Assembly: GCA_003137135.1 (NCBI GenBank)
Contig: PLFB01000115.1
Span: forward strand, 25,848 to 57,953
Origin: Acetobacteraceae bacterium
Lineage (GTDB): Bacteria > Pseudomonadota > Alphaproteobacteria > Acetobacterales > Acetobacteraceae
Direction of reading: 5' to 3'
DNA length: 32,106 nt
Part shown: piece after piece, positions 5,791 through 30,697 of the stretch
How the letters are laid out: every line of letters starts with the position of its first letter
How positions within the stretch are numbered: position 1 is the first letter of the stretch
Program-made: the position numbers and the translations under genes
The notes under the pieces: model-generated
Seen by the model: only the letters and a program-made list of their open reading frames with translations
Database searches by the model: none
What the model was told of the DNA's origin: nothing

Positions 5791-5804
5791 GTAAGTGTAC
5801 TATA
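5791..5804. promoter_or_regulatory. GTAAGC-type operator box
   Basis: GTAAGTGTACTATA matches the shared 14-bp dyad consensus GTAAGCATGCTTAC at 9 of 14 positions. It lies in the 352-bp divergent gap 5684-6035, upstream of the CrtC-like gene. The rest of the gap shows no open frame I would call, apart from the second box at 5958. Confidence 0.45.
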
Positions 5805-5957
5805 CGCAGGCCGTCATTTCCTGGGAAGGGGCAACGCGGAAGCTACCTTCCGGCGCATGCCGTCTCCGCCGCCGAAGTTTTTGCGGCGCGTTTTCGTCAG
5901 CCGCGGGCCAGTGACGCACCTGCAAGCGGGCGACGGCAAGCCGGGCCGGTATATTTA

Positions 5958-5971
5958 GTAAGCATATTGAC
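5958..5971. promoter_or_regulatory. GTAAGC-type operator box overlapping a candidate -35
   Basis: GTAAGCATATTGAC is a clear copy of the shared dyad. Its right end overlaps TTGACT (5967-5972), which is 17 bases from TAGCCT, a possible though weak sigma-70 promoter for the small gene at 6036. A repressor bound here would block the -35. Confidence 0.5.
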
Positions 5972-6035
5972 TATTTGCCCGGGTCACCGTAGCCTGGCGT
6001 TACCAGAACGTCCACATAAGCGAAAAGAGTCCGCC

Positions 6036-6242
6036 ATGGAGGAATATTCCAGCCAGGTCGTTGCTTACGAATATACCGAAATTGAGTCCCTGTCGGGCAA
6101 TAGGGAATACATTATCGGCCCGTGCCATGAGTGCGCCGTCGATGCGAGCGGTTCATTGCCGATCTGGGTCAACATATTATATTTTGTATTGTTCATCGTG
6201 GGGGCGAGCCTGGTTTGTTATCTCGGCTGGAATCCGTTTTAG
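6036..6242 (+). CDS. Small single-pass membrane protein
   Basis: The product is 68 residues: an acidic, polar N-terminal half (MEEYSSQVVAYEYTEIES) with a CHEC motif (residues 34-37), then one hydrophobic helix at about residues 44-65 (IWVNILYFVLFIVGASLVCY) and a short WNPF tail. I do not recognise the family. The frame is open from 5967, but ATG 6036 is the first start that gives a compact protein; the ribosome site is weak (AAAAGAG). Base composition is lower in GC than the neighbours. A GTAAGC box and possible promoter lie 65 bp upstream, which supports it being a real transcribed gene of the regulon. The Cys-His-Glu-Cys motif could bind a metal; this is a guess. Confidence 0.55.
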   Translation: MEEYSSQVVAYEYTEIESLSGNREYIIGPCHECAVDASGSLPIWVNILYFVLFIVGASLVCYLGWNPF

Positions 6243-6342
6243 ATTGATTTGATGCCTCACAAATCCATTCAGTTTTAGCAAGATTTGCCTCAAGACAGTG
6301 CCATGAGACCGTCATCCGTCTAGAAATTTTGAGGAATCTTCA

Positions 6343-7287
6343 ATGCGCGTGCTGATTTTCGGTGCAAGCGGCTATATCGGGAAACGGACCGCCATACGAT
6401 TGCTGGAAGCAGGCCACGACGTCACCGGCTACGTGCGGAGCGAGCCAAGCGCGCAGCAGGTCAGGGCGCTCGGCGCCGCCGCCATCGTCGGCGATCTTGA
6501 AGACAAGACCATGATCGATGCGGCGCTGGCGGCCCATGACGCGGCGCTGTGGCTGGCGCAATTGGCGTTGCCGGATGAAAAACGCGTCATCGGCGACTAC
6601 CTCCGGGCGCTGCGGGCGAGCGAAAAAATCTTTATTTTCACAGGCGGCGCCAGCGTGCTCTCCGAGCCGACACGCGGCGAATGGTCCGAGACAAGTTTTG
6701 CCGAGACCGACAGCATTCTGCCGCGCGCGCCGCTCGCGATCAGGGCGGAGACGGAATATATGGTGCGCACCGCCATGCAGTCCGGCGTCAAATCCATGGT
6801 GGTCCGGCCGCCCTTGGTATTCGGCCATGGCGGCTGCAAGGTCATCTCGGACATCTACCACAGCGCCCGCAGGACCGGTGCGGTCTGCTATGTCGGGCGC
6901 GGGCTGAATGCCTATTCCAGCGTTCATGTCGATGATCTGGCGGAGCTGTTCGTGCTGGCGCTCGCGCGCGGGCGGGCGGGCGCGCTGTATCATTGCGTCG
7001 CCGGAGAAGCCTCGTTCCGCGCCATGGCGACGACCATCGCCGGGCGGCTTGGCGTCGGCACGAAAAGTGTCAGCGTCGAAGAAGCGCAGCAGATATGGGA
7101 CAAGTTCAGCGGCGCCACCGTGTTCGCGTCGTGCAGCCGGCTGCGCGCACCCCTCGCCCGCGCGGAACTTGGCTGGCGGCCCAGCCCGGAACTGGCCGAT
7201 ATTCTTGAGGAATGCGAACACCCCGCTTACGCCACGGAGACCGAGCGTACGCTCGCCTCCTGGATCAAGCCGGCGAGCATTGGCTGA
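6343..7287 (+). CDS. NAD(P)-dependent epimerase/dehydratase-like atypical extended SDR
   Basis: The 314-residue Rossmann-fold protein opens with RVLIFGASGYIG, whose GASGYIG (residues 7-13) is the extended-SDR dinucleotide motif. VVRPPLVFGHGG and SVHVDDLAEL are the usual later landmarks of NAD-dependent epimerases and dehydratases. The active-site YxxxK is not recognisable: the segment reads RAETEYMVRTAM. It is therefore better described as an atypical SDR, possibly an NmrA-like sensor, or an enzyme using other residues. GAGGAA lies 6 bases before the ATG. The TetR gene follows 113 bp downstream on the same strand. Substrate is unknown. Confidence 0.85.
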   Translation: MRVLIFGASGYIGKRTAIRLLEAGHDVTGYVRSEPSAQQVRALGAAAIVGDLEDKTMIDAALAAHDAALWLAQLALPDEKRVIGDYLRALRASEKIFIFTGGASVLSEPTRGEWSETSFAETDSILPRAPLAIRAETEYMVRTAMQSGVKSMVVRPPLVFGHGGCKVISDIYHSARRTGAVCYVGRGLNAYSSVHVDDLAELFVLALARGRAGALYHCVAGEASFRAMATTIAGRLGVGTKSVSVEEAQQIWDKFSGATVFASCSRLRAPLARAELGWRPSPELADILEECEHPAYATETERTLASWIKPASIG

Positions 7288-7400
7288 TCAGGGCGCCGGC
7301 GCCACCCGGAAGCCCGTGCGCGATTATAGCGATTTTACAAAGGCACGGTTATTCACTACCATCGGGCCATGGTTTGACGCGATTTCGCAGCAAGGTTGGG

Positions 7401-8111
7401 ATGAACACCGTAAAACCGAAGATCGTAAAACCGAAGCGCGGGACGGCGGAAAAAAACCAGAGCGCAAGAAAACCATCAGATTCCAAAGCACGCATCCTGG
7501 CCGCCGCCACCCGGCAATTCGCGGACCGCGGATTCGAGGGCGTGGTGATCCGCGATATCGCGAAAGCGGCCGATGTGACGCTGCCGACGATCTATCACTT
7601 CTTCGGCGACAAGCGAAAATTGTACGAACAAACCTGTATCGAAATCTTCGAAAAGCAGAACGCGGTGCTGCAAGAGGCGCTGCGGGCCGCGGATGATCCG
7701 GCCACGCGCCTGTGGCGTTTCACGGCGCAACTTTTGTCAATCCTGATCGAAGACAATGAATTCGCGCGGCTGCTGCAACGCGAATTGCTGGAACAGGATC
7801 ATTCGCTGATTGACGATCACGTCCGGCTATCGCTGCAGCCGCATTTCAAGATGTTGTCGGCGGCGGTTACGGAAATTACCGGCAAGCAGGATTCGCTCGA
7901 CCGCAGCATCGCGATCTATTCTTTGGCGTATGGCCTGTCCACCTTGCGGCCGATCTGGCAGGTCTTGAATGGCAAAAAACCCGTGAAATTAAAGACGCCG
8001 CTGGCGACGACAAAGCTGGTTCTCAGCCTGGCGATTCCCGAGATCGATTGGGACGCGCCGAAGCCGGCGCCAGGCGGCGCAAAACAGAAAGAAAAACAGT
8101 TACTTTTTTGA
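7401..8111 (+). CDS. TetR-family transcriptional regulator
   Basis: This is a 236-residue repressor-type protein. After a basic tail (about 28 residues) comes the TetR HTH, residues 30-76: ILAAATRQFADRGFEG, IRDIAKAADVTLPTIYHFFG, DKRKLYEQ. The C-terminal helical ligand domain follows. The frame is open back to 7212 inside the previous gene, but ATG 7401 with AAGG just upstream gives the normal length. The last residues (EKQLLF) and the stop codon come from the palindromic repeat. It is the only TetR-type gene in the window and so the obvious candidate to bind the GTAAGC dyads, but no box lies directly upstream of it. Confidence 0.92.
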   Translation: MNTVKPKIVKPKRGTAEKNQSARKPSDSKARILAAATRQFADRGFEGVVIRDIAKAADVTLPTIYHFFGDKRKLYEQTCIEIFEKQNAVLQEALRAADDPATRLWRFTAQLLSILIEDNEFARLLQRELLEQDHSLIDDHVRLSLQPHFKMLSAAVTEITGKQDSLDRSIAIYSLAYGLSTLRPIWQVLNGKKPVKLKTPLATTKLVLSLAIPEIDWDAPKPAPGGAKQKEKQLLF

Positions 8112-9085: not shown

Positions 9086-9090
9086 CGTTG

Positions 9091-9780: not shown

Positions 9781-9804
9781 GTCCCACCCTCGATTTTTTG
9801 TTGC

Positions 9805-10086: not shown

Positions 10087-10087
10087 G

Positions 10088-10675: not shown

Positions 10676-10684
10676 GGCGCGGCA

Positions 10685-12025: not shown

Positions 12026-12116
12026 TGCCTTATCCGCTTCCTCGTTTGGCGCTATCGGCCAGCTCCTGCAAAGAATGTGTCTAGCGTTGGGGGAAACAAA
12101 TGTCGATAGGCTTATC

Positions 12117-14828: not shown

Positions 14829-15956
14829 TCACGGCATGAGCTTGACGACGTCGCCGATGGCGATGAAGGGCATATAGCCGAACCCCGCCTGCCCGTTGAC
14901 CTGGACCCGCACGGCGACCTCCCGGTGGTTTGGCCGCAATCGGCGCCCGTCCGGCATCACCACCTCTTCGGGGTCGGAAATGTCGTAGGTGTCGATCTCG
15001 CTCAACAGGCCGGCGCTGCGCCACACGCCCTGACCCTTGCCGTCATCATAGCCCGCATCATAGCCGAACCCCTTATACGCCCACGGGCGGGCCGCCGGTT
15101 CGGCGACGATGTCGTAGTGCCGGCCATCCTCCGTGACCGCGTGCACATGCAGCCGCCGGGGCGCCCGCGTGCCGGGAAAGGTTTTTACGTCCCACTCATA
15201 GGATTTCACTTTCGAGGCGCCGCCGGACGGCGGCCCGATATGGCCGGTGACATAGATCCCCTGCCCCTCGGCATTTTCGATCACCTGGATGCCGCCGCCG
15301 AGGTCGTCGCCGGCCATGAAGCCGACATAAAACAGCAACAGCCCCTTGCCGCCGGCGCGCGCCGCCGAGGGGAAATTATCCGTCACCCCCGGCAAAGGCG
15401 GCTCGAACCCGCCGACACCAGGCCGCACGCCCCAGCTATGGTCGCGCCAGCCAAACCAGCGCGCCGCGGCAAAAGTGCTGCCCTCGATCTGGAGCGTCCC
15501 GCTGGCGGTCATCAACTGATTGAACCGCAGATAATCCTGCGTCACCCGCCCAAAGGCGCGGTGCAGATGCGGCTCCTCCAGCACCGGCTCCATGAATTTC
15601 TCAAAAACCATATCGAACTGAAACGGCGCATCATTGGCCTCCAGGATATAGCGGATTTCCTGAAACGGTTTGACGATTTCGATGCGCAACGGCCCCAGCG
15701 CCTGCGACATGTCCGGCCGCAATTCGCGCGACATGCGCAGATTATGCTGCCGCGCCTGCGCCACGTGCACGGCGGCAAAGCCATCCATCACGTTCATATT
15801 CTTATAGGCCGCCATGCCGAGGATCATCCCGGCGCCGCCATCCGGCGCGGACGCGGTGACGACCGTGCGATCAAAAAAGCGGTGATCGCTGGTGGCGCAC
15901 AATTCAAACGGCAGGGCGGCTTGATGCATGAAGCTTTCGTCAAGGGCCGTCAGCAT
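14829..15956 (-). CDS. CrtC/AttH-like (lipocalin-fold) protein
   Basis: The 375-residue protein begins with LDESFMHQAALPFE, TSDHRFFDR and YKNMNVMDGFAAVH. The central motif is WFGWRDHSWGVRPGVGGFEP (R171-R178), and the C-terminal part has KGFGYDAGYDDGKGQGVWR and GFGYMPFIAIGD. Nearly every block recurs in the paralogue at 17239, so the pair arose by duplication; by eye about 45% of residues agree. CrtC hydrates carotenoids, and RDHSWG is in the position of its conserved His/Trp motif. CGGAG precedes the ATG. No signal peptide is seen. A GTAAGC dyad lies 101 bp upstream at 16057 and is shared with the divergent hydratase-like gene. Confidence 0.8.
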   Translation of the reverse strand: MLTALDESFMHQAALPFELCATSDHRFFDRTVVTASAPDGGAGMILGMAAYKNMNVMDGFAAVHVAQARQHNLRMSRELRPDMSQALGPLRIEIVKPFQEIRYILEANDAPFQFDMVFEKFMEPVLEEPHLHRAFGRVTQDYLRFNQLMTASGTLQIEGSTFAAARWFGWRDHSWGVRPGVGGFEPPLPGVTDNFPSAARAGGKGLLLFYVGFMAGDDLGGGIQVIENAEGQGIYVTGHIGPPSGGASKVKSYEWDVKTFPGTRAPRRLHVHAVTEDGRHYDIVAEPAARPWAYKGFGYDAGYDDGKGQGVWRSAGLLSEIDTYDISDPEEVVMPDGRRLRPNHREVAVRVQVNGQAGFGYMPFIAIGDVVKLMP

Positions 15957-16056: not shown

Positions 16057-16070
16057 GTAAGCCTGCTTAT
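16057..16070. promoter_or_regulatory. GTAAGC-type operator box inside a larger dyad
   Basis: GTAAGCCTGCTTAT differs from the consensus GTAAGCATGCTTAC at two bases. It lies within an outer inverted repeat, CAAGGCGGT (16050-16058) and ACCGCCTTG (16084-16092). It is in the 324-bp divergent gap 15957-16280 and could serve both the CrtC-like gene and the hydratase-like gene. Nothing else recognisable is in the gap. Confidence 0.55.
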
Positions 16071-16280: not shown

Positions 16281-17072
16281 ATGACAAAATACGAATCGAT
16301 CCTGGCCGAAACCGATGGCCACGTTCTGCAGATCACGCTCAACCGCCCGGAAAAACTGAACGCGATCGACGAGCAGATGCACCACGATCTGATCGCGGTG
16401 CTGCAAGGCCTGCAGGGTCAGTCCGAGATCCGGGCCATCGTTCTGGCCGCCAACGGCAAGCATTTTTCCGCCGGCGGCGACCTCAACGAGGTCTTTCGCA
16501 TCCAGGCCGACGCCGCGGTCCGCAAGCGATTCCATGAGCAGGGGCTGGCGCTGATGCGCACGCTGATGGACAATGTCATTCCCGTCGTGGTGGCGCTGCA
16601 TGGCGACGCGCATGGCCTGGGCGCCAATATCGTGCTGACCGGCGACGCGGTGGTGGCGCAGCCGAAGGCGAAGCTGTCCGACGCGCATGTGGTGGCCGGC
16701 ATGGTCGCGGGCGATGGCGGCTGCGTCGTCTGGCCGCAGGCCATGGGCATGCTCTGGGCCCGGCGCTATCTGCTGACCGGCCAGCACATCACCGCCGAAG
16801 CCGGTTATGCGCGCGGGCTGATCACCGACCTGGTGCCGACGGCCGAAGAGGTTCTGCCCGCCGCACGCGCCATCGCCGCGCGCATCGCCGGCCTGCCGCC
16901 GCTCGCCGTGCAGCATACCAAGCGCGCGCTGAACCGGGTGACGCAGCAGCGCGCCGGCGAAGTGTTCGACTATTCCCTGGCGCTCGAACAGATCACGCTG
17001 CTGTCGAGCGACATCCGCGAAGCGGTTGAGGCTTTCAAGGCCAAGCGCCCGCCCGTCTATAAGGGCGAGTGA
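16281..17072 (+). CDS. Enoyl-CoA hydratase/isomerase-fold (crotonase) protein
   Basis: The 263-residue crotonase-fold protein would act on a CoA thioester. ITLNRPEKLNAID, the oxyanion-hole segment HFSAGGDL (residues 61-68) and GDAHGLGANIVLTGD are typical. Both catalytic glutamates of classic enoyl-CoA hydratase appear replaced: the first by Asn116 (GLGANI for GGCEL) and the second by His136 (LSDAHVVAG for FGQPEI). A DxH...GDGG form of this site recurs in many annotated hydratases whose chemistry is unproven, so isomerase, hydrolase or lyase activity is equally possible. The ATG at 16281 has only GGAA upstream. It is transcribed away from the CrtC-like gene at 14829. Confidence 0.85.
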   Translation: MTKYESILAETDGHVLQITLNRPEKLNAIDEQMHHDLIAVLQGLQGQSEIRAIVLAANGKHFSAGGDLNEVFRIQADAAVRKRFHEQGLALMRTLMDNVIPVVVALHGDAHGLGANIVLTGDAVVAQPKAKLSDAHVVAGMVAGDGGCVVWPQAMGMLWARRYLLTGQHITAEAGYARGLITDLVPTAEEVLPAARAIAARIAGLPPLAVQHTKRALNRVTQQRAGEVFDYSLALEQITLLSSDIREAVEAFKAKRPPVYKGE

Positions 17073-18378: not shown

Positions 18379-18825
18379 CTATGCTCCTTTATTTGCGTCC
18401 CAGAGCTCCAGCTGCTCGAACAGCTCGATCAAATTGCCGCTATTATCGCGAAAAAACGCAAACGCCGCGAACGGGCCGGTGCCGTGATGCACGATATCCA
18501 CGTGGCGGCGCCGCAGTTCCGCGACCGCCGCCGCCATATCGCGCACCGCAAAGGCGACGTGTTTGGTGCCATGCGTGCGCAAATCCTCCTGCACATCGCT
18601 GCGCGCGGCCGGCAAGGGTGCCGCATGTTCAGGCTGGAACAGTTCAACGCGCAGCACGCCGCGGCGCAACATCGCGACATCCGCCGGCACCGACGCAACG
18701 CGCCGCCGCCACTCAGCCTCAAAGCCCAGCGTCTCGCGGTACCAGCGTATCGAAGCCTCCAGATCCGGAACGCTGAATGCAACGTGATGGTAACGGATAT
18801 CAATGCCGTCGATCGGATCCGTCAT
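18379..18825 (-). CDS. VOC-family (glyoxalase/bleomycin resistance/dioxygenase fold) protein
   Basis: This 148-residue protein is made of two beta-alpha-beta-beta-beta modules: RYHHVAFSVPDLEASIRWYR and KHVAFAVRDMAAAVAELRRR. The four expected metal ligands are visible: H14, E61 (RVELF), H89 (KHVAF) and E134 (LIELFE). It could therefore be an active metalloenzyme such as a methylmalonyl-CoA-epimerase-like or glyoxalase-like protein. A GTG at 18855 would add 10 residues, but ATG 18825 with GGAGA 5 bases upstream is the better start. It leads the operon with the CrtC-like gene and is controlled from the divergent region 18826-19049. Confidence 0.88.
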   Translation of the reverse strand: MTDPIDGIDIRYHHVAFSVPDLEASIRWYRETLGFEAEWRRRVASVPADVAMLRRGVLRVELFQPEHAAPLPAARSDVQEDLRTHGTKHVAFAVRDMAAAVAELRRRHVDIVHHGTGPFAAFAFFRDNSGNLIELFEQLELWDANKGA

Positions 18826-18860: not shown

Positions 18861-18874
18861 GTAAGCATGCTATT
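18861..18874. promoter_or_regulatory. GTAAGC-type operator box
   Basis: GTAAGCATGCTATT matches the consensus GTAAGCATGCTTAC at the first eleven positions. It lies 36 bp upstream of the VOC gene start, on the minus-strand side of the divergent region. Confidence 0.6.
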
Positions 18875-18936: not shown

Positions 18937-18950
18937 GTAAAGTTGCTTAC
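18937..18950. promoter_or_regulatory. GTAAGC-type operator box
   Basis: GTAAAGTTGCTTAC is a GTAA-N6-TTAC dyad 100 bp upstream of the kinase-like gene at 19050. TACTAT at its right edge could be a -10. Together with the box at 18861, each arm of the divergent promoter has its own site. Confidence 0.6.
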
Positions 18951-20105: not shown

Positions 20106-20591
20106 ATGCAGCCCACCGCAAGAACCTTGATCGACCGGATCGCCGATGCGCTGGATGAGACGGTGCTGCCCTCGCTGTCGCAGGATAAATGGTCGGCGAG
20201 CACGGTGCGCAGCGCCGTGACCCTGCTGCGGCACCTGGCCAAGCGCGTCGAGCTGGAAGCCGCGATCATCGCGGCCGATACGGCGGATGCGCACACGGTG
20301 CTCACCGGCCTGCTGCCGCGCATCCGGCCAGGCGAGGATGCGGAGCTCAAAGCCAAGATCGCGGCGATCCTTGCGGATCCGGCGCCGCCATCCTTTGACA
20401 CGCCGGCGCTGGATGCCCAGAACACGCGCTACCAGGCCGTATTCGAGCAATTGTTGCGCGACCAGTATGACGGCGGCTGGACCAACGAGCAGGCGCAGCC
20501 CGTGCGCGGCGCGATTCGCGCCTATCTGAAACGCCGGCTGGCGCGGGAACGGGACATGTATATGCCGGAGTTTTCCGGGCCGCCCTTCTGA
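20106..20591 (+). CDS. Helical protein resembling the N-terminal domain of the 13476 kinase
   Basis: This 161-residue, mostly helical and soluble protein opens with TLIDRIADALDETVLPSLSQ and SAVTLLRHLAKRVE. This matches the start of the intact kinase at 13476 in pattern (ALRDRILPELSG, MTIIARVVSFL). So the same domain is fused to one kinase and separate from the other. It starts 3 bp after the kinase-like gene with GGGAG overlapping that gene's end, implying equal synthesis and probably a complex. The C-terminal part (YQAVFEQLLRDQYDGG, YLKRRLARERDMYMPEF) has no counterpart I can place. No catalytic motif is visible. Confidence 0.8.
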   Translation: MQPTARTLIDRIADALDETVLPSLSQDKWSASTVRSAVTLLRHLAKRVELEAAIIAADTADAHTVLTGLLPRIRPGEDAELKAKIAAILADPAPPSFDTPALDAQNTRYQAVFEQLLRDQYDGGWTNEQAQPVRGAIRAYLKRRLARERDMYMPEFSGPPF

Positions 20592-20626: not shown

Positions 20627-21409
20627 ATGTATATAAAGCTTGGCGAAACGGGGCGGATGCTGGACGGCAAGACGGCACTGATCGTGGGTGCCAGCCGCGG
20701 TATCGGTGCCGCGGTCGCGGAAGCGTGCGTCGCGAACGGCGCACGCGTGGTGCTGGCGTCCCGCACTGTCGATGACATGGCAGCGCTGGCCAGGACGTTT
20801 CGCGAAGCCGGCGGTCAGGCGCATGTCGTGGCCACCGACATCATGGACCCGGCGGCGATACAGCACGCCGTCGATGAAACCGTGCGCGTATTCGGCCGGC
20901 TGGATATCGCGGTGAACAATGCCGGCGTCAGCCAGGTGCGCGTCGATTTCGATCGGCTGAGCCTGGAGGCATTCGACCGGACGATGACCACCAATGTGCG
21001 GTGCCTGCTCACCGCCATGCAGTGCCAGATCAGGGCGATGCTGGAATCCGGTGGCGGGAGCATTGTGAATATCGCGTCGATCACCTCCGTCGTTGGCGTG
21101 CCCAACATGGCCGCCTATTGCGCCAGCCGCCATGCGATGCTGGGCATGACCAAAAGTGCAGCACTCGATTATGCGCAGCGCCATATTCGCATCAATGCGG
21201 TGGCGCCGGGGCCGACCATGACGGCGCAACTCAAAGCCGGCGGCGCGGCGACGCCTGAAGGTGCCGAGCGGATGCGCGTGTGCATCCCGATGGGCCGGTT
21301 TGGCGAGCCCCATGAAATTGCCGGCGCGGTGGTGTTCCTCAGTTCGGACGCCGCGTCCTTCATGACGGGTGTGTATCTGCCGGTGGATGGCGGCTACATC
21401 GTGCCTTAG
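20627..21409 (+). CDS. Short-chain dehydrogenase/reductase with YxxxR active site
   Basis: The 260-residue classical SDR has the cofactor motif GASRGIG (21-27), NNAG (97-100), the catalytic-Ser strand NIASITS (about 148-154) and the C-terminal PVDGGYIVP. The expected catalytic YxxxK reads Y164-C-A-S-R168, so the Lys is Arg (codon CGC). Arg57-like cofactor preference cannot be judged; ASRT after the second strand suggests NADP. Oxidation of a hydroxyacyl-CoA or cyclic alcohol would fit the context, but the Lys-to-Arg change may slow or alter catalysis. GGAGGGA precedes the ATG. It is the last gene of the three-gene operon that begins with the 19050 kinase-like gene. Confidence 0.88.
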   Translation: MYIKLGETGRMLDGKTALIVGASRGIGAAVAEACVANGARVVLASRTVDDMAALARTFREAGGQAHVVATDIMDPAAIQHAVDETVRVFGRLDIAVNNAGVSQVRVDFDRLSLEAFDRTMTTNVRCLLTAMQCQIRAMLESGGGSIVNIASITSVVGVPNMAAYCASRHAMLGMTKSAALDYAQRHIRINAVAPGPTMTAQLKAGGAATPEGAERMRVCIPMGRFGEPHEIAGAVVFLSSDAASFMTGVYLPVDGGYIVP

Positions 21410-21800: not shown

Positions 21801-21814
21801 GAAAGTATGCTTAT
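21801..21814. promoter_or_regulatory. GTAAGC-type operator box
   Basis: GAAAGTATGCTTAT keeps the strong right half ATGCTTAT of the dyad. It lies between the small minus-strand gene (103 bp) and the acyl-CoA dehydrogenase start at 21932 (118 bp). The rest of 21699-21931 shows nothing else I can name. Confidence 0.5.
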
Positions 21815-21931
21815 CATCTGCGGGCGAATTTTAAAATTGGAGATCAGCCTATCGCGCTTGACGAGGCTTCTTTTGTCATGAAGCGCTCTGCCGTCTCCGG
21901 CAACGAACCCCACGGACCATGGAAATCAGAA

Positions 21932-23089
21932 ATGCAAATTGATCACACAGAACGCGGTATCTTCAACGAAAGTCATCATGCCTTTCGCGAGCAGGTGAGG
22001 CGCTTCTACGCTCAGGAGATCGAGCCCAACGTCGCGGCCTGGGAGCGTGACGGTGCGTTCGATCGTAACCTGTTCCGCAAAGCCGCGAAGGCCGGCATCC
22101 TTTGCCCCGGCGTGCCGGAAGAATATGGCGGCGGCGGCGGCGATATTCTGCATCTTGCGGTCTGCTACGAGGAGCACGGCTATTCACCGGCAGGTGCGAG
22201 CATCGATAGCGGGATCGATACCGACGCCTCCGCCTATATCATTCTGCTCGGCGGCACCGAGGCGCAAAAGCAATTCTGGCTGCCAAAATTCGCCAGCGGC
22301 GAGGTGGTGGGCGAAGGATTGTTTACCGAGCCTCATGCCGGCTCCGACATGACGGCGATGAAAACCACCGCGGTCCGACAGGGCGATCAATGGGTCATCA
22401 ACGGCTCAAAAGCCTGGATTACGAACGGCAACCATCTCGATCTATGCCTGCTGGTGGCCCGCATCAAGGAGGCCGGTGACACCAAACCAAAATTCGGGCT
22501 GTTTTTAATCGACGCCGACGCGCCTGGCGTGAGCAAGGGCAAACCGTTCCAGACCATGCTGCGCGGGTGTGGCAATCTGGGCGAATTGTTTTTCGAAAAT
22601 GTGCGCGTTGGTGACGACCGGGTGCTCGGCGGGCCTGGCGCCAGTGGACTCGGCCAGGCGGCGCGCACTCTCAGCATCACCCGCACGATTTTTGCCGCGC
22701 GCTCTGTCGCCGCTTGTGAACTGGCGTTTCATATGGCGCTGGACTACGTGAAAGATCGCCCGGCATTCGGCAAAACCCTGTTCGACCTGCCGGTGATAAA
22801 AGCCAAGCTCGCGCAGGTGAAAATGCGCATCGCGGTGGCGCGCGCCTTTGTGGATAAATGCCTGGTGGCGGCGCGCGACGGCCGCCTGACCGCGGAGCAG
22901 TCCTCCATGGCGAAACTCTGGTGCACGGAAATGGAGGTGGAGATCACCGATATCTGCGCGCATCTGCACGGCGCCATGGGTTTCAGCAACGAACATCCGA
23001 TTTCGAAAATGGTGGCCGCGGCGCGGGGCCATCGCTTTGCCATGGGGGTGTCGGAGATGCAGCTCGATACCATCGCGCGTCAGCTGTAG
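21932..23089 (+). CDS. Acyl-CoA dehydrogenase family protein
   Basis: The 385-residue flavoprotein should introduce an alpha-beta double bond into an acyl-CoA and pass electrons to ETF. Landmarks are GVPEEYGGGGGD, the FAD-contacting TEPHAGSD, NGSKAWITNG, DRPAFGKTL and HLHGAMGFSNEHPISKM. The catalytic Glu of the medium-chain type (YEGT) reads AMGVSEM (Met371), and the isovaleryl-type position reads SITR, so no canonical base is visible at either site. ATG 21932 is chosen over an in-frame ATG at 21878, which has no ribosome site and adds 18 unlikely residues. It resembles the ACAD at 27663 throughout, so the two are paralogues and may form a mixed tetramer. Confidence 0.88.
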   Translation: MQIDHTERGIFNESHHAFREQVRRFYAQEIEPNVAAWERDGAFDRNLFRKAAKAGILCPGVPEEYGGGGGDILHLAVCYEEHGYSPAGASIDSGIDTDASAYIILLGGTEAQKQFWLPKFASGEVVGEGLFTEPHAGSDMTAMKTTAVRQGDQWVINGSKAWITNGNHLDLCLLVARIKEAGDTKPKFGLFLIDADAPGVSKGKPFQTMLRGCGNLGELFFENVRVGDDRVLGGPGASGLGQAARTLSITRTIFAARSVAACELAFHMALDYVKDRPAFGKTLFDLPVIKAKLAQVKMRIAVARAFVDKCLVAARDGRLTAEQSSMAKLWCTEMEVEITDICAHLHGAMGFSNEHPISKMVAAARGHRFAMGVSEMQLDTIARQL

Positions 23090-23286: not shown

Positions 23287-23736
23287 TTATGCCCGCGTGA
23301 CCTTGACCGCCACCCGCGCCAGCCGGGTTGATTTGATCCGCCAGGCGCCGTCCACTTTCTCATAGCGCTCATGCTCGTAGCCGAATCCCTCGAGTGCCGT
23401 GTTGATGTTGCCGGGCGGCCAGGTGAGTTTATCCTCCTGCGCCCAGATGCCATGCGCTTCGGTTGCGGAGGTGATGGTGATTTCGGGCAAGAATGCACGG
23501 TCCGTCGAGGTGCCGTTGCCAAGCGCACGCTCCGCGAATTGCCGGATGACCTGGTTCCCGCGGTAAATTCCCTCTTCCGTGTTGATGATGCGGTCGGGGT
23601 TGCGCATGTCCATGACGGCGTCCTCGGTGAAAACCGCCTCGAAGTCATCCCATTGCTTGGTATCGAGAAACCTGTAGTAGCGGGCTTTCAACTGCTTGAT
23701 GTCTTCGATCGCGACCAGACGCTCGAGGTCATTCAT
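23287..23736 (-). CDS. NTF2/SnoaL-like protein
   Basis: The 149-residue alpha+beta-barrel protein has the usual start LVAIEDIKQLKARYYRFLDT, followed by WDDFEAVFTEDAVMDM, and ends with the strand-rich YEHERYEKVDGAWRIKSTRL. Proteins of this fold include ketosteroid isomerase, scytalone dehydratase, limonene epoxide hydrolase and many polar-pocket binding proteins. D34 in the KARYYRFLDT-KQWDDF region and the SnoaL_4-type pattern fit the dehydratase/isomerase group, but the reaction cannot be assigned. ATG 23736 with GGGAGAG upstream is preferred to the open frame from 23763. It is divergent from the racemase gene, with a possible operator between. Confidence 0.82.
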   Translation of the reverse strand: MNDLERLVAIEDIKQLKARYYRFLDTKQWDDFEAVFTEDAVMDMRNPDRIINTEEGIYRGNQVIRQFAERALGNGTSTDRAFLPEITITSATEAHGIWAQEDKLTWPPGNINTALEGFGYEHERYEKVDGAWRIKSTRLARVAVKVTRA

Positions 23737-23796: not shown

Positions 23797-23816
23797 GTAC
23801 GGATGCTCATTATGAG
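23797..23816. promoter_or_regulatory. Possible GTAAGC-type box with overlapping palindrome
   Basis: GTACGGATGCTCAT (23797-23810) fits the dyad loosely. It overlaps a perfect 13-base palindrome, GCTCATTATGAGC (23804-23816). It lies 22 bp upstream of the racemase start and 61 bp from the NTF2-like gene start. Confidence 0.35.
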
Positions 23817-23831: not shown

Positions 23832-25022
23832 ATGCAACCGACAGGGAATGATCACCGCACGGCCGGGCACGCGTCGCATCCCATGGGTCCACTAACAGGC
23901 GTCAGAATCATCGAACTTGCCGGCATCGGTCCGGCGCCGTTCTGCGGCATGCTGCTGGCTGATCTGGGCGCCGACGTGCTGCGGATCGATCGCAAATCCG
24001 GCGGCGCGCGCTCGATCGAGATTGATCCGGCCGCCGATATCATGAACCGGGGCCGGCGTTCGATCGCAATGGATTTGAAACATCCCGCCGCGATCGCGGC
24101 ACTTTTAGAACTCGTCGAAACGGCGGATGTACTGATCGAGGGGTTCAGGCCTGGGGTGACAGAGCGGATGGGCGTGGGGCCGGAGGCGTGCCTGGCGCGC
24201 AACAAGCGGCTGGTTTATGGCCGGATGACGGGGTGGGGGCAGACGGGTCCGCTGGCGCAAAGTGCTGGGCATGATATCAATTATCTGTCGCTGTCGGGCG
24301 CGCTGCACATGATCGGGCGCAGGGGCGAAAAGCCGGTGCCGCCGCTGAATCTGGTGGGGGATATGGGGGGCGGCGGGCTGTATCTGGCGTTTGGCGTGAT
24401 GTGCGCGCTGTTTGAGGCGCAGCGTTCCGGCCAGGGGCAGGTGGTGGATGCCGCGATGGTGGAGGGTGCGGCGTTGCAGATGGCGGCGATTCTCACGATG
24501 CGCGCGATGGGGCATTGGCGTGATGAGCGCGGCGCCAATCTCACCGATAGCGGCGCGCATTTCTATGAGGTTTACGAGACCAGCGATGGCGGGTACATGG
24601 CGGTCGGCGCGATCGAGCCGCAGTTCTATGCGCTGCTGGTGCAAGGCGCCGGTCTGGATGCGGAACGGTTTACGCGGCAGATGGATGCCAGCGGCTGGGA
24701 TGATCTGAAGCGCGAGCTTGGAGATATCTTCAAGACAAAAACCCGCGCTGAATGGGAGCGGATCTTCGATGGCACCGATGCCTGCGTGACGCCCGTGCTT
24801 GCTGCCGGCGAGCTGGCCGCGCACCCGCATAACCGGGCGCGCGGCGTGTACCTGGATGACGGCATTTTGCAGCCGGCGCCGGGACCGAGGTTCAGCCGCA
24901 CCCCAGGTGCCATCCGCCGTCCGCCGCCGTTGCCGGGGCAGCATACCGATGAGGCTTTGGCCGACTGGGGGTTTGACGAGGCGCAGATCGAGCGGTTGCG
25001 CCGTGAAGGGGCGGTGGCCTAG
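23832..25022 (+). CDS. Alpha-methylacyl-CoA racemase (CaiB/BaiF family)
   Basis: This 396-residue protein interconverts R- and S-2-methylacyl-CoA, needed before ACADs that accept one isomer. All three catalytic residues of the racemase group, as known from mycobacterial MCR (H126, D156, E241), are present with identical spacing: H147 in AGHDINYLSLSG, D177 in NLVGDMGGGG and E262 in YMAVGAIEPQFYAL. The N-terminal PLTGVRIIELAGIGPAPFCG and LADLGADVLRID are the CoA-binding start of the family. ATG 23832 has GGAGTG upstream; ATG 23883 is an alternative that removes 17 residues. It implies that the pathway substrate carries a methyl branch next to the thioester, as in isoprenoid or steroid side chains. 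Confidence 0.92.
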   Translation: MQPTGNDHRTAGHASHPMGPLTGVRIIELAGIGPAPFCGMLLADLGADVLRIDRKSGGARSIEIDPAADIMNRGRRSIAMDLKHPAAIAALLELVETADVLIEGFRPGVTERMGVGPEACLARNKRLVYGRMTGWGQTGPLAQSAGHDINYLSLSGALHMIGRRGEKPVPPLNLVGDMGGGGLYLAFGVMCALFEAQRSGQGQVVDAAMVEGAALQMAAILTMRAMGHWRDERGANLTDSGAHFYEVYETSDGGYMAVGAIEPQFYALLVQGAGLDAERFTRQMDASGWDDLKRELGDIFKTKTRAEWERIFDGTDACVTPVLAAGELAAHPHNRARGVYLDDGILQPAPGPRFSRTPGAIRRPPPLPGQHTDEALADWGFDEAQIERLRREGAVA

Positions 25023-25424: not shown

Positions 25425-27623
25425 TCAGCCCACGATCCGGCGGGCGAAATAATCCGCGATTTTATCCGCCGAAAAGCCCAGTTCCTGCAGAATGGCCGAC
25501 GTATCGGCGCCCAAGGCCGGCACGGCGTCGTGGCCCGAATGCGCGGCGCGCGAGAGCTGGAACAGCGTGCCCAGCATTTTCACGCCGCCATATTTTTGGT
25601 CCTGCCAGGTGACGACGGTTTTGCGCGCCGCCAGGCCTTCGTCCTGCAGCCAGATATTGCCGTCCTGCAGAACAGGTTCCGCCCAGACGCCGTGGCCGGC
25701 AAAGCGGCTGCAAAGGCTCTCGGTGGTCTCCCGTCGCATTGCAGCACCCAGCTTTTCGGATTCGGCCGCGGCCCAGGCGGCGCGGGGCGGAAAGCCGTCC
25801 AGGTCCAGCGCGCGCAGCAAGGCACCGGCCATCGCCTCCGAAGGTGCGAATACGGCGATCCAGCCATCTTCGGTCTCGTACACCGCCTCGGACGGATGAA
25901 AGCCGGTCTGTTGGTGGTTGAGCATTCGCGCGCCCTTAAAAGCGCCGCCGGCGTCGCGAAACAGTTCGGAGAGCATGAAAAATCCGGAATGCAACAGGCT
26001 GGTGCGCAGGCTGGCGCCCGCACCGGTCCGCCGGCGATGGATCAGCGCCAGCAGCACGGCGGCCGCGCCGCACAGACCGGCCGCGTAATCGATCATCGAG
26101 GAGCGGTTCCAGACCGGGGCGTTGCCCTCGCCGCCGGCTAGGTACTCAAAACCGCAAAAAGCCTGCAGCACCATGTCGTAACCGGGCCGCTGGCCGCTCG
26201 GGCCGGTGGAGCCGTAGCCGGTGGCTTCCAGGACGATGATGCCGGGTTTTTGCGCCTGCAGCGATTCGGGGTCCATGCCCAGACGCGCGGAAACGCCGGG
26301 GCGGTAATTGTTGATCACCGCGTCGGCGCTGGCGAACAAGCGGCGGACAATTTCCGCTCCCTCCGGCGTTTTCATATCGACGGCGATGGACCGCTTGCCG
26401 CGGTTGCAGCCGAAGAAGCAGCGCGGCACGTGGCGCGCGATGTCGCCGGTGAGGGCTTCGACCTTGATGACGTCGGCGCCGAGATCGACGAGCGGGAGAC
26501 TGCTGAAGGGCCCGGCCACCAGCGCGCCGAAATCCAGCACGCGCAGCCCGGCCAGCGGCGCGCTGCCAGCCGCCGGCGCGGCGGGCGGCGGGCCAGCGGT
26601 CCAGCTGGCGGCGAAGGGCGGGCCGGCATAGGTTTCGCCGCCGGGGGCTTCGCGCAGCAGCGCATTGTGCGCGACCTGAGGGTCGCTCCAGCATTCACCG
26701 GGCTGCAGCACGTTTTCCACCGCCACTTCGGCGGCGATGATCGCGGCCACCAGCTCATCGCTGTTGAAATTCGCGACGTGGGCGGCGAGCGTATCGACGT
26801 CGCCAAAATAATGTTTTGGCGGGCCGATGGGATTTGGAAAGCCCGCATCATCGATGGCGACGCTGGGATCGTCGATTTTGAGGATGCGGTACAGCCGCCC
26901 CTTCGAGCCGGCCGAGCCGAGCACGAAATGAATATATTTGCCGTCCTTGCAGCGGAAAATCAGCGGGTGCGGATCGCGCGGCATGACGAAGCGCAGCCGC
27001 CCATCGGGCTTGTCGCCCGCCACCCAGTAGGGCGTGCACCAGTTCAAAACGCCCTCGAACAGACTCACCGAGGCGACCTGGCCGCCGCCGCCCGCGAGCT
27101 TGCCGTAGAACGCGCCGAGCAGAGCCGAAAGCCCGAGCAGCGCCGCGCCATAATTCGCGGCGGCGAAGGCGGCGACGTAGGGTTTGTCCGAATAATGCTC
27201 GAAACAAAAACCCGAGCGCGCCTGCACGAGAATTTCGGCGGCCGGGCGGTCGTGAAACGGCAGGGAGTCGGGGTAGCCGGTGATGTTGAGGATGGTTAAA
27301 TCCGGATGCCGCGCGGCGATGCGCGCGGGATCCAGCCGCCAGGAGAATGCCGGAAAATCCTCGCCGCCCATGACGCATATATCCGCCTGCGCCAGCAGGG
27401 CCGCGACGCGCGGCGCCGATAGCGACGGGATTTTTTCGATGTCCTTCATGCCGTGCCATAGGCGATAGGCGGGATAGACGCCGTAAAAGGGATCCGTTTC
27501 CGCCTCGAGCCGAATGATGCGCGCCCCCGCCTCCGCCAAAACTTTCGTCACCAGCGCCGGCGCCATCCCACAACCCAGATCAAGCACGGTCAGGCCCTTC
27601 AGCACGTCCTCAATACCCGGCAT
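25425..27623 (-). CDS. Tandem-fused CaiB/BaiF CoA transferase
   Basis: At 732 residues it is twice the usual class III CoA-transferase length. The first unit (about 1-335) starts LKGLTVLDLGCGMAPALVTK; the second (about 350-732) starts LAGLRVLDFGALVAGPFSS and holds CNRGKRSIAVDM, RPGVSARLG, RPGYDMVLQAFCGFEYLAG and SSMIDYAAGL. The Asp that would form the acyl anhydride is D512 in the second unit; the aligned position in the first unit is Ala155 (FAAANYG), so that half seems inactive and may be structural. The family works as interlocked dimers, which a fused pair could imitate. GAGGG precedes the ATG. It follows the ACAD at 27663 by 39 bp in one operon. Confidence 0.88.
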   Translation of the reverse strand: MPGIEDVLKGLTVLDLGCGMAPALVTKVLAEAGARIIRLEAETDPFYGVYPAYRLWHGMKDIEKIPSLSAPRVAALLAQADICVMGGEDFPAFSWRLDPARIAARHPDLTILNITGYPDSLPFHDRPAAEILVQARSGFCFEHYSDKPYVAAFAAANYGAALLGLSALLGAFYGKLAGGGGQVASVSLFEGVLNWCTPYWVAGDKPDGRLRFVMPRDPHPLIFRCKDGKYIHFVLGSAGSKGRLYRILKIDDPSVAIDDAGFPNPIGPPKHYFGDVDTLAAHVANFNSDELVAAIIAAEVAVENVLQPGECWSDPQVAHNALLREAPGGETYAGPPFAASWTAGPPPAAPAAGSAPLAGLRVLDFGALVAGPFSSLPLVDLGADVIKVEALTGDIARHVPRCFFGCNRGKRSIAVDMKTPEGAEIVRRLFASADAVINNYRPGVSARLGMDPESLQAQKPGIIVLEATGYGSTGPSGQRPGYDMVLQAFCGFEYLAGGEGNAPVWNRSSMIDYAAGLCGAAAVLLALIHRRRTGAGASLRTSLLHSGFFMLSELFRDAGGAFKGARMLNHQQTGFHPSEAVYETEDGWIAVFAPSEAMAGALLRALDLDGFPPRAAWAAAESEKLGAAMRRETTESLCSRFAGHGVWAEPVLQDGNIWLQDEGLAARKTVVTWQDQKYGGVKMLGTLFQLSRAAHSGHDAVPALGADTSAILQELGFSADKIADYFARRIVG

Positions 27624-27662: not shown

Positions 27663-28841
27663 TTAGATGCTGCGGGCGATGGTGAGGCGCTGGATTTCCG
27701 ACGTGCCCAGATAGATGCGATGGACGCGCGCGAACGCGTACATTTTCGAGATCGGGTACTCATCGCTGAAGCCGGCGCCGCCATGCAATTGCACGCATTC
27801 ATCCATCACGCGGCCCTCCAGTTCCGAAATCCAGAGTTTCGCCATGGCGCTCTCCACCGGGTCGCATTTGCCGCCGGCATTGCGCAGCAGCAGCCGGTCC
27901 AGGAAGGCGCGGCCGACGGCGATTTCGGTTTTCATCTGCGCCAGCTTGAACTGCGTGTTCTGGAAATCGATGACGGCCTGGCCGAAGGCTTTGCGTTCGC
28001 GCACGAAATCGACGGTGATCTTGAACGCCAGATCGCACGCCGCCATCATCCGCGCGCCGGTTGCCAGGCGGGAGGTGGTGATGGTGCCCAGCGCCGCCGC
28101 CATGCCGCGGCCCTCATCGCCGCCCAGCAAATTCGCGGCCGGGATGCGAACATCCTCGAAAAACACCTCGGAAACGCCGCCGGCGCTTTTCATCATCAGC
28201 TCGATCGGCTTGGAAACCGTGACGCCTTTGGTGCCCTTGATGGGCACGATGAACATGCAGATGCCGCCTTTGTTGTGGGCATCGGGCTCGGTCCGGGCGG
28301 CGACCACCAGCATGGTGATGATCGGCCCGTTGGTCATCCACATTTTCGAACCGTTCAGCACGTAATCGCCACCGTCCCGCTTCGCGGTGGTGCGCAGGCT
28401 GCGCACGTCGCTGCCGGAATGACCCTCCGTCACGCCGACTTCCGCGATCACGTCGCCGGACGCAAATTGCGGCAGCCATTCGCGGCGCTGCGCCTCGTTG
28501 CCGCCGAGCATCATTACATAGGACGTCGTATCCGTGCACAGCCCGCCTTCGAGCGCAGCACCCGCGAGGGAATAGCCATGTTCCTCGTAAAAAATCGCGT
28601 GGTGCAGAAAATCGCCGCCGCCACCGCCATATTCTTCCGGAATGCCGGCACAGAGCAGGCCGGCCTGCCCGGCCTTCTTGAACAATTCGGCCGGGAAGAA
28701 ACCGTCCTTCTGCCACTGCTTGATGTTCGGCTCAACCTCGGACTGAAAGAACCGCCGCGTGGTGGTGCGGTACGCCTCATGATGGTACTGAAAAATCTCC
28801 CGTCCATAGCCCAAAAGCGCGGTGGGTGGTGCAGAGTCCAT
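27663..28841 (-). CDS. Acyl-CoA dehydrogenase family protein
   Basis: The 392-residue ACAD has GIPEEYGGGGGDFLHHAIFY, TEGHSGSDVRSLRTTAK, NGSKMWMTNG, RERKAFGQAV and LHGGAGFSDEYPISKMYAFA. It is a clear paralogue of the 21932 gene product. The region holding the medium-chain catalytic Glu reads IYLGTSEIQ (Leu378 in place of Glu), and the isovaleryl-type position reads TTSR, so neither canonical base is present. It could work as the partner of another subunit, as in the mixed alpha2-beta2 ACADs of steroid degradation, where one subunit lacks the active site. GAGGAAAA precedes the ATG, and a GTAAGC box lies 59 bp upstream. It leads an operon with the fused CoA transferase and probably the DUF1330 gene. 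Confidence 0.9.
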   Translation of the reverse strand: MDSAPPTALLGYGREIFQYHHEAYRTTTRRFFQSEVEPNIKQWQKDGFFPAELFKKAGQAGLLCAGIPEEYGGGGGDFLHHAIFYEEHGYSLAGAALEGGLCTDTTSYVMMLGGNEAQRREWLPQFASGDVIAEVGVTEGHSGSDVRSLRTTAKRDGGDYVLNGSKMWMTNGPIITMLVVAARTEPDAHNKGGICMFIVPIKGTKGVTVSKPIELMMKSAGGVSEVFFEDVRIPAANLLGGDEGRGMAAALGTITTSRLATGARMMAACDLAFKITVDFVRERKAFGQAVIDFQNTQFKLAQMKTEIAVGRAFLDRLLLRNAGGKCDPVESAMAKLWISELEGRVMDECVQLHGGAGFSDEYPISKMYAFARVHRIYLGTSEIQRLTIARSI

Positions 28842-28899
28842 CGTTTTCCTCGCAATTTTTCATTCGCTTGGCTCAGCGCTAGCATATGTCGGCACTCAA

Positions 28900-28913
28900 G
28901 TAAATATGCTTAC
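28900..28913. promoter_or_regulatory. GTAAGC-type operator box
   Basis: GTAAATATGCTTAC is a GTAA-N6-TTAC dyad, one of the best copies. It lies 59 bp upstream of the ACAD gene that starts at 28841. Confidence 0.6.
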
Positions 28914-28950
28914 TATTCGCAAACGAGGCAATCGGGTGAACAAACGGAGG

Positions 28951-29091
28951 CAAGAAAGCCGCTACTTTTTTCGAAAAAAAGTAACCAAAAAACTCTCGTT
29001 TAAACGAGTCACAGCGCCTGCAATGCCTAGGACTCAAGGAATCAAGAGTTTTTTTGGTTCTTTTTTTGCAAAAAAAGAACTTCTTGCTTAC
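28951..29091. repeat. Palindromic terminator repeat
   Basis: The left arm is CTACTTTTTTCGAAAAAAAG, TAACCAAAAAACTCTCG; the right arm is AGAGTTTTTTTGGTTCTTTT and GCAAAAAAAGAACTTCTTGC. The right arm has changed TTAC to TTCT and GTAAC to GAAC together, keeping the hairpin. The core pairs only partly. It ends the acyl-CoA synthetase gene, whose stop codon lies within it. Confidence 0.82.
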
Positions 29092-30604
29092 TTTCATAGC
29101 GCTGTTTCAGCAGCCGCTTATAAATCTTGCCGGTTTCGTGCCGCGGCAGGTCGGTCGCGAAGTCGATCCGCCGCGGGCATTTGTAGTTGGCCAGGCGCGC
29201 GCGGCAGCAGGCGATCAGGGCCGCGGCAAGCTCAGGGCCGGCAGCCGCCGGATCGACCGGGTGGATGACCGCCAGCACCGCCTCGCCGAACTCCTCGTCC
29301 GGCACGCCGATCACCGCTGCATCCCAGACGTCTGGATGCGCCAGCAGAATATCCTCGACCTCCTGCGGATAGATGTTGACGCCGCCGGAGATGATCATGT
29401 GAGACTGCCGGTCAGTGAGGTACAGATACCCCTCGTCATCAAGATGGCCGATATCCCCCAGCGTGGAATAGCCTTCGGGCGAATAGGCCTGCGCGGTTTT
29501 CTCGGGGTCGCCGTGATATTCGAAGCGCGGTCCGCCTTCGAAATACACCAGCCCGTCCTCGCCATTCGGGCATTCTCCGTCCGGCCCGATGATGTGCACG
29601 CGGCCGACCACCGCCTTGCCAACCGAGCCCGGATGGCTCAGCCATTCATGGCTGTCCAGCGCGCACAGCCCGTTGCCTTCGGTGGCGCCGTAATTCTCGA
29701 ACAGAATCGGGCCGAGCCAGTCGATCATCGCCTGCTTCACGTCGCGGCCGCACGGGCCGGTGCCGTGAATCACCTTGCGCAGGCTGGAAAGATCGTAGGC
29801 GGCCCGGACTCGTTCCGGCAATTTCAGCAGCCGCACGAACATCGTCGGGACCAGGCTGACATGCGTGACGCGATACCGCTCGATCAGCGCCAGCGTGGCC
29901 AGCGCGTCGAATGCCTCCATCACCACCAGCGTGCCACCGGCGTGCCCGGTGACCATCGCATACCGCAGCCCGGCCGCGTGGTAGAGCGGCGAGGTGGACA
30001 AAAACACCGTTTGCTCGTCGAAGCCGTACAAATCCGACATGAACGCCATCACCGGCATCATCGACGTAATCTCCCCGTCCGGCAGCGCGGTTTTCACGCC
30101 TTTCGGGCGCCCGGTCGTACCGGAGGAATACATCATGTCCCGGCCCAGCGACTCATCGGGAATCGGCGCCGCCGGCAGCGCCGCCAGCGCGGCCTCGTAA
30201 CCCAAAAACCCGCTCGGCGGCGCGCCGGTGCAAACCAGCCTCTCAAGCCTTGCGAGACGGCCGGCCTCCATCGCCACGCCGGCATGAAGTTCGCTCGTGA
30301 ACAAAATTTTCGCCGCACTGTTCTCTAGAATATAGGCGATTTCCTCGGCCTTCAGCCGCCAAGAAACCGGCACCACATAGAGCCCGGCGCGCTGCGCCCC
30401 CCAAAATACTTCCAGAAATTCAGGGCGGTTTTCCAGCAATACCGCCAGCGCGTCACCCCGGCGCAACCCTTGCTCCCGCAAGAACCGCGCGATTTGGTTC
30501 GCCCGGTCCTCCAGCGCCCCGTATGACAGGCGGATGCCGGAACCGGCCATCACCACCGCCGACATTTCCGGCGCTTTCGCGGCCCACTGCCTTGGATGCG
30601 GCAT
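29042..30604 (-). CDS. Acyl-CoA synthetase (AMP-dependent ligase family)
   Basis: It activates a carboxylic acid to its CoA thioester through an acyl-adenylate. The 520-residue protein has the nucleotide loop MMYSSGTTGRPKGVK, the A5 motif ENYGATEG, the A7/A8 region YSTLGDIGHLDDEGYLYLTD and RQSHMIISGGVNIYPQEVE, and the catalytic Lys in ETGKIYKR near the C-terminus. The complete motif set argues for an active enzyme of the FadD3/FadD17-like group; the acid is unknown. GAGGAGGGAGAA precedes the ATG. The last residues (about EVLFLQKKNQKNS) and the stop are encoded by the palindromic repeat. It is divergent from the ACAD at 30778, with a dyad midway between them. Confidence 0.93.
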   Translation of the reverse strand: MPHPRQWAAKAPEMSAVVMAGSGIRLSYGALEDRANQIARFLREQGLRRGDALAVLLENRPEFLEVFWGAQRAGLYVVPVSWRLKAEEIAYILENSAAKILFTSELHAGVAMEAGRLARLERLVCTGAPPSGFLGYEAALAALPAAPIPDESLGRDMMYSSGTTGRPKGVKTALPDGEITSMMPVMAFMSDLYGFDEQTVFLSTSPLYHAAGLRYAMVTGHAGGTLVVMEAFDALATLALIERYRVTHVSLVPTMFVRLLKLPERVRAAYDLSSLRKVIHGTGPCGRDVKQAMIDWLGPILFENYGATEGNGLCALDSHEWLSHPGSVGKAVVGRVHIIGPDGECPNGEDGLVYFEGGPRFEYHGDPEKTAQAYSPEGYSTLGDIGHLDDEGYLYLTDRQSHMIISGGVNIYPQEVEDILLAHPDVWDAAVIGVPDEEFGEAVLAVIHPVDPAAAGPELAAALIACCRARLANYKCPRRIDFATDLPRHETGKIYKRLLKQRYESKQEVLFLQKKNQKNS

Positions 30605-30683
30605 CGTTGTTCTCCCTCCTCACACCCGGCCGGTGCCACGCCAGCCGATGCTTGCCAACGGCCGCATGGCCGATTAGTCTATC

Positions 30684-30697
30684 GTAATTATACGTAC
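30684..30697. promoter_or_regulatory. Possible GTAAGC-type operator box
   Basis: GTAATTATACGTAC keeps the GTAA left end and TAC right end of the dyad but not the GCATGC centre. It lies 80 bp from both the synthetase start and the ACAD start, in the middle of the divergent promoter region. Confidence 0.4.

Follow-up and report, generated by a model that had tools for sequence, protein, structure and literature searches.

The 32,106-nt stretch of Acetobacteraceae DNA analysed here, referred to below as the window, carries nine near-copies of a 14-bp inverted repeat (dyad) in the promoter regions of a catabolic gene island that is rich in acyl-CoA enzymes. The conclusion that one regulator serves many promoters, and that these form a catabolic regulon, is well supported, and we consider it probable, at about 60%, that the nine dyads are operators of one winged-helix regulator of the MarR family, of the EmrR/SlyA kind, encoded off this contig; the assignment to a family is predicted from comparisons with MarR genes of the same genus. 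An earlier sequence-only reading of the window had proposed that a single repressor coordinates these promoters through a TetR-type operator. The first part of that proposal agrees with the enrichment of the dyad, its intergenic placement, the absence of a genome-wide excess and the presence of outside sites before catabolic genes, and we have retained it. The second part was not supported, in that the dyad matches those of EmrR-like MarR genes of the genus and the nearest TetR homologues are associated with a different dyad.

All nine sequences were present where the sequence-only reading had placed them, except that the first, given as 5791, fits better in a register four bases earlier (matrix score 20.9 at 5787 vs 10.4 at 5791). 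All are intergenic, in a region of which 14% is intergenic. No exact copy of GTAAGCATGCTTAC occurs in the window. With up to 3 mismatches to the 14-mer consensus we observed 7 matches against 0.5 expected, a number reached in 0 of 100 shuffles; six of these are among the nine sites and the seventh, at 9725, is inside an open reading frame (ORF) and had not been listed, and the listed sites 5791, 23797 and 30684 differ from the consensus at four or more positions. A symmetric 20-bp matrix, in which the dyad reaches outward to AT on either side, gave the nine sites scores of 17.9–23.9 (13.9–21.4 in leave-one-out scoring, with the first site at 5787), and the next separate matches in the window were a poly-A/T stretch at 2559, at the 3' end of the LysR gene (15.4), and then a match of 13.4. 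By this matrix the patatin, LysR and cysE genes have no site before them, as had been noted, and there was also none in the ~25.8 kb by which the contig continues leftward beyond the window (best score 12.8). The nearest gene starts were measured at 21–210 bp from the sites, in agreement with the 22–211 bp given earlier; for site 5958 to fit this range, the 68-aa ORF at 6036 would have to be a real gene, the start of gene 6343 being 371 bp away.

The same dyad was recovered without prior knowledge of it. An unsupervised symmetric motif finder, allowed at most one site per stretch and applied to 25 intergenic stretches with A/T runs masked, returned this dyad alone (7 stretches, score 55.1). 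It returned nothing from 200 of 200 block shuffles, and a motif from 3 of 13 control sets of the same genome, the best of which scored 29.7 with 4 sites. When A/T runs were left unmasked, in the window and in a second catabolic contig (C269), a dispersed T/A repeat, ACTTTTTTGAAAAAAAGT, dominated and was the sole motif returned.

We then consider whether the dyad could belong to the core promoter or be a motif that is common in the genome, for which the likeness of its right half and flank (TTACTAT) to a -10 or -35 box would speak. The degenerate 17-mer RTAAGYATRCTTAYNAT, with up to 3 mismatches and on either strand, was matched 62 times in the assembly (4.2 Mb in 285 contigs, 84% complete), including 15 times in the window. 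The 47 matches outside compare with 44 for a reversed-pattern control, which argues against both a general promoter element and a common word, and at up to 2 mismatches the window sites account for 6 of the 9 distinct places genome-wide. Furthermore, the sites average 4.0 of 7 symmetric pairs, vs 1.8 for intergenic 14-mers, their distances to gene starts vary, and several stand singly between divergent genes. The core-element explanation is very improbable on these grounds, and refuted as far as sequence allows. The region does hold another dispersed intergenic repeat, and the nine copies might by that precedent be remnants of one, but their flanks are only 29% alike on average (37% at most), vs 68% for the core (first site at 5787), which refutes this explanation and leaves it a next to negligible probability.

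Sites outside the window extended these observations. Many of the pattern matches outside the window fall within genes: of the 14 that score at least 15 with the matrix, 4 are in coding sequence. The other 10 are intergenic, and catabolic genes follow only some of them. At scores of at least 17 there were six places, five of them intergenic, and four of these lie 54–104 bp (from the site centre) before a catabolic-type gene: an enoyl-CoA hydratase gene on contig C76 (20.5), an acyl-CoA dehydrogenase gene on C63 (17.3), and the genes of a glyoxalase-fold protein and an amidohydrolase on C269. No catabolic-type gene is near the fifth, which is on C119. The C76 site (G000:C76:33914, TTAGTAAGTATTTTGACTAT) is a near-copy of site 5958. 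The hydratase gene there lies downstream of secretion- or pilin-like genes, and its operator-promoter stretch is nearly identical to that at 5958, including the -10-like spacing.

The evidence for a MarR-type operator came from the genus. In 38 genomes, GTAAGCATGCTTACNAT with up to 2 mismatches gave 21 matches at 19 distinct places, against 5 in the control; two of the 19 are window sites, six are at the start of an EmrR-type MarR gene, and 8 of the other 11 are inside crude ORFs. Sixty MarR places were listed, 30 of which were obtained as loci, so that with the species' own EmrR gene, on contig C156, 31 loci were scored (23 EmrR-type, 8 other). The 23 EmrR-type genes, of which the species' own is one, are 57–100% identical to it, and all 23 have a window-matrix match of at least 14.5 near the start, compared with 0.6% of shuffles. 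The dyad at these genes, ATAAGC-NN-GCTTAT, is placed just upstream, and at the EmrR-type loci whose context was read the next gene after the MarR gene is emrA-like. Three further EmrR genes (genomes G008, G015 and G032) have the dyad ATAAGCGCGCTTAT at the corresponding place, and half-sites of the window form, GTAAGC, are present in the EmrR sites of G005, G009, G017 and G031. The window and EmrR dyads have in common the core TAAGC-N2-GCTTA and a TAT flank.

The reciprocal comparison gave the same result. A matrix built from EmrR sites of other species only ranked the window sites 1–7, 10 and 15 among 32,087 positions. Because the EmrR sites in that matrix had been located with the window matrix, a second version was made de novo against circularity, from 22 upstream regions of other species (21 of which gave a site) and with no letters from the window; by this matrix the window sites took the first 5 places and 7 of the first 8, the remaining place going to the poly-A/T stretch.

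Several observations weigh against a MarR regulator of the EmrR/SlyA kind. With the window matrix, the EmrR dyads of G008 and G015 reach only 13.0; conversely, 2 of the 9 window sites, 21801 and 30684, score poorly with the EmrR matrix. The outer base is mostly C in the window sites and T in the EmrR sites, so that the regulator is not simply the conserved EmrR, and the EmrR dyad was itself deduced from conservation and not from binding. There was no MarR match on the window's contig (C173), which breaks off where the window ends on the right, and the sole regulator seen among the 20 island proteins scanned is the TetR protein at 7401. The MarR gene that is divergent from the homologous Rv3169/kinase operon in G008, G015 and G032 speaks for a MarR regulator, although nothing clear was found when these MarR-Rv3169 intergenic stretches were read for the dyad. 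Finally, 12 of 14 catabolic-type MarR loci have no upstream window-matrix match of at least 14.5 (in a shorter stretch, 1 of 8 has a match). The two that do are C269:2011, at 16.5 (site 1953, 51 bp before the gene), and a locus on G016:C14, whose match scores 18.3 although it is 264 bp distant.

A special case of the MarR explanation is that the species' own EmrR, encoded on C156 before an emrA-like pump gene, also controls the island. The two kinds of site have the same half-sites and NAT flank, the GTAAGC half-sites of the four genomes named above also speak for it, and the own EmrR site is the top EmrR-matrix match (21.6) among the other own-genome stretches scanned. Nevertheless, that site scores just 14.7 with the window matrix, the window sites prefer an AT centre where the EmrR centre is free, and the EmrR dyads are placed before the regulator gene. 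A pattern search in G008, G015, G032 and G016 also showed no comparable multi-site cluster, and no multi-promoter catabolic set was seen in the relatives searched. We consider this special case unlikely.

The other regulator to be weighed is the TetR protein, the nearest candidate of the sequence-only reading, which would bind the nine dyads and repress the island and, through site 5958, its own operon. The protein is intact and lies inside the island, its gene is possibly co-transcribed with the preceding one from the 5958 promoter (6343–7287, 7401–8111), and there is precedent for TetR repressors that act on acyl-CoA catabolic genes through short dyads, as in BkaR (PMC3920632). However, there is no dyad directly upstream of the gene (7288–7400, best score 7.6), the nearest being 5958, before the preceding gene. 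The nearest homologues of the protein in the genus, one in G008 and one in G032, are preceded by a dyad of another sequence, CGGTTTTGGCCAAACCGG or a near-copy of it, although at 35–36% identity this is weak evidence. In 385 genomes of the class there was no homologue with E <1e-20 besides the protein itself (up to 7 candidates scored where there were more); named genomes gave 2 loci (33% and 29%) and plasmids 1 match (36%), and these homologues are too distant for the TetR operator to be footprinted. Also, control by the TetR protein leaves the selection of the window sites by the EmrR matrix unexplained. Since short palindromes are also known for TetR catabolic repressors (BkaR, EdcR), the form of the dyad alone does not decide the family, and it is the comparison within the genus that shifts the weight to MarR. 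We regard the TetR explanation as less likely, but as a real rival. As a separate observation, the two TetR-homologue loci (L079:16453 and L080:9225) have half-sites similar to CGGTTTTGGCCAAACCGG near acyl-CoA dehydrogenase-like genes.

If the regulator is a MarR protein, the nearest candidate genes would be the MarR genes of C269, which are best by gene context, and the C156 EmrR gene, which is best by operator; the true regulator may also be encoded in the missing 16% of the genome. On C269 (68 kb) the EmrR matrix had 6 matches of at least 11, weaker relatives of the dyad and all intergenic. Four of them precede a kinase homologue, a 497-aa gene, a glyoxalase-fold gene and one MarR gene, and the remaining two are in the gap that separates a second MarR gene from a divergent 428-aa gene. 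At the same threshold the 25.9 kb to the left of the window had no match, and 272 kb of other own-genome stretches, which had been chosen for pattern matches or MarR genes, had 8, of which 5 are intergenic. The C269 MarR protein has its best match to the NCBIfam SlyA model, below the cut-off (64.9 vs 120 bits). The contig (L130–L133) also carries Rieske oxygenase, kinase, amidohydrolase and glyoxalase-fold genes together with three SlyA-like MarR genes.

With regard to mechanism, we infer the identity of the MarR protein, its binding, the repression and the effector as follows. A MarR dimer would bind the half-sites (G/A)TAAGC and GCTTA(C/T) and, seated on or beside the promoter, would repress about 12 island promoters, several through shared divergent sites; the same regulator would act on a few genes elsewhere in the genome, and its release would be brought about by a pathway metabolite, plausibly an acyl-CoA. 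At its edge, site 5787 shares two bases with a predicted -10 box (TATAGT), which is accompanied by a -35-like TTCCCA. By eye, site 5958 and the C76 site have in common a TTGACT with TAGCCT or TAATCT 17 bases on, so that the dyad would cover the -35 box at both; the promoter scan listed none at 5958. This layout is like that of CouR, whose inverted repeat covers -35 boxes, and by that analogy repression with ligand release would be the most likely mode of action.

Several known systems can be compared. CouR of Rhodococcus jostii RHA1 is a MarR repressor of a CoA-thioester catabolic pathway, with p-coumaroyl-CoA as ligand (PMC4737184); its inverted repeat overlaps -35 boxes and two divergent promoters share a single site, as here, but the dyad is cATTGA-TCAATg, the regulator gene is within its own regulon and the effector is known. 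SlyA, also of the MarR family, has the consensus TTAGCAAGCTAA or TTAN6TAA (PMC5797941), which is short, as is the window dyad, and has the same AGC-N2-GCT centre; it differs in its half-site, TTAGC vs TAAGC, and in its targets. Among TetR-family regulators, BkaR of mycobacteria likewise has a local acyl-CoA-type regulon and a short palindrome, but a different one (core GTTA-N-T-N4-A-N-TAAC; PMC3920632), and its dyads lie directly within the promoter of the BkaR gene itself. EdcR of Caenibius tardaugens also serves a catabolic cluster, with a palindrome that overlaps -10 boxes (PMC8700777); that palindrome, TnnCnnTACnAnTnGTAnnGnnA, is longer, and the divergent regulator gene is within the cluster. 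The exact 14-mer did not occur in the literature text searched, and titles and abstract starts on MarR-family, acyl-CoA dehydrogenase and kinase regulons held nothing that was obviously this system. A local operator set over a catabolic cluster is of a well-known kind, and the present nine-site set is newly seen.

The coordinates of the sites and of the island genes are collected in the Table. By transcription units hand-counted from gene calls, the dyad is present at 12 of the roughly 15 promoters that lie between position 4691 and the end of the contig. The island contains acyl-CoA dehydrogenases, an acyl-CoA ligase, class III CoA-transferases, an enoyl-CoA hydratase, APH-fold kinases and Rv3169-family proteins. 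No dyad was present in the block 8258–14729, which consists of membrane-protein-like genes and genes for an amine-oxidase-like protein, a DUF7065/7064 protein and one kinase. The 68-aa ORF behind site 5958 may be the first gene of the unit that contains gene 6343 and the TetR gene.

Table. Dyad sites and genes of the catabolic island, in positions of the window
Feature	Position	Strand	Remarks
Dyad site 1	5787..5800	none	103 bp before 5683 (-) gene
Dyad site 2	5958..5971	none	~64 bp before ORF 6036, 371 bp before gene 6343 (+)
Dyad site 3	16057..16070	none	between divergent 15956 (-) and 16281 (+)
Dyad site 4	18861..18874	none	35 bp before 18825 (-) gene
Dyad site 5	18937..18950	none	99 bp before kinase gene 19050 (+)
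Dyad site 6	21801..21814	none	63 bp before acyl-CoA dehydrogenase 21878 (+)
Dyad site 7	23797..23810	none	between SnoaL-like 23736 (-) and CoA-transferase 23832 (+)
Dyad site 8	28900..28913	none	58 bp before acyl-CoA dehydrogenase 28841 (-)
Dyad site 9	30684..30697	none	midway between divergent acyl-CoA ligase 30604 (-) and acyl-CoA dehydrogenase 30778 (+)
Rv3169/DUF7065-like protein	4691..5683	-	matches below curated cut-offs
68-aa ORF	6036..6242	+	hydrophobic near end; directly behind site 5958
NAD-dependent epimerase/dehydratase	6343..7287	+	
TetR-family regulator	7401..8111	+	PF00440, E 1e-14
Rv3169-family protein	14829..15956	-	CrtC-like in the sequence-only reading
Enoyl-CoA hydratase	16281..17072	+	
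Rv3169-family protein	17239..18378	-	
Glyoxalase-fold protein	18379..18825	-	start by gene call; longer ORF begins 18855
APH-fold kinase	19050..20102	+	sequence matches: solved ACAD11, 3ats/3att, 3dxp
Small protein beside kinase	20106..20591	+	without accepted family
Short-chain dehydrogenase	20627..21409	+	
Acyl-CoA dehydrogenase	21878..23089	+	
SnoaL-like protein	23287..23736	-	start by gene call; longer ORF begins 23763
Class III CoA-transferase	23832..25022	+	
Double-domain class III CoA-transferase	25425..27623	-	downstream of 27663
Acyl-CoA dehydrogenase	27663..28841	-	
AMP-binding acyl-CoA ligase	29042..30604	-	
Acyl-CoA dehydrogenase	30778..32007	+	

An APH-fold kinase gene followed by a gene for a small protein (152–161 aa, no accepted Pfam family) is found alike in the window (19050–20591) and on C269 (L131:94–1598). 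This pair is like the LvaA-LvaB arrangement, in which the product of 20106..20591 presumably has the place of LvaB. Because the kinase at 19050 matches ACAD11 and 3ats/3att, and because the kinase domain of ACAD10/11 phosphorylates 4-hydroxyacyl-CoAs (PMC11342911), it is plausible by analogy that the island pathway handles a hydroxyacyl-CoA.

The repeat that dominated the unmasked motif search is dispersed and intergenic; copies around ACTTTTTTGAAAAAAAGT are at window positions 2439, 4613, 8102, 12168, 14793, 21476, 23247, 28964 and 32052, and several adjoin AACCAAAAAACTTTT. It is also frequent on C269 and is present at the end of the window's contig. Perhaps it represents terminators or a repeat at which assembly breaks.

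Some matches in relatives were kept as hints only. Orthologous sites before an acyl-CoA dehydrogenase gene in G032:C28 and G008:C6 scored 19.8 and 19.5, and a lone strong dyad, GTAATTATGCGTATTAT at G008:C5:13809 (21.1), is near window site 30684 in sequence and has a short-chain dehydrogenase-like gene and a small protein gene as neighbours. The other pattern matches in the genus whose context was read were in ribosomal-protein, metabolic or unassigned stretches. At the thresholds used, the masked motif search came back empty for C269, G008:C6, G015:C49 and G008:C73, and in G008:C5 and the two TetR-homologue regions it returned other motifs.

A less likely possibility is a history in which an operator type that was seen in the other species of the genus mainly before EmrR-type MarR genes has been multiplied to nine copies in this one species, bringing the whole catabolic island and scattered other genes under MarR control in trans, with the island TetR protein playing another part. 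If true, this would be a case of recent and traceable regulon building by operator spread, and if the spread began from an efflux-type regulator, the relatives without it would offer a before-and-after comparison of regulon formation. The regulator to seek first would be of the MarR family and not the neighbouring TetR protein. For the island itself, the observations gather CoA, kinase and Rv3169-family genes that had been uncharacterised into a single regulon that can be tested, whose common substrate could be traced by way of one switch.

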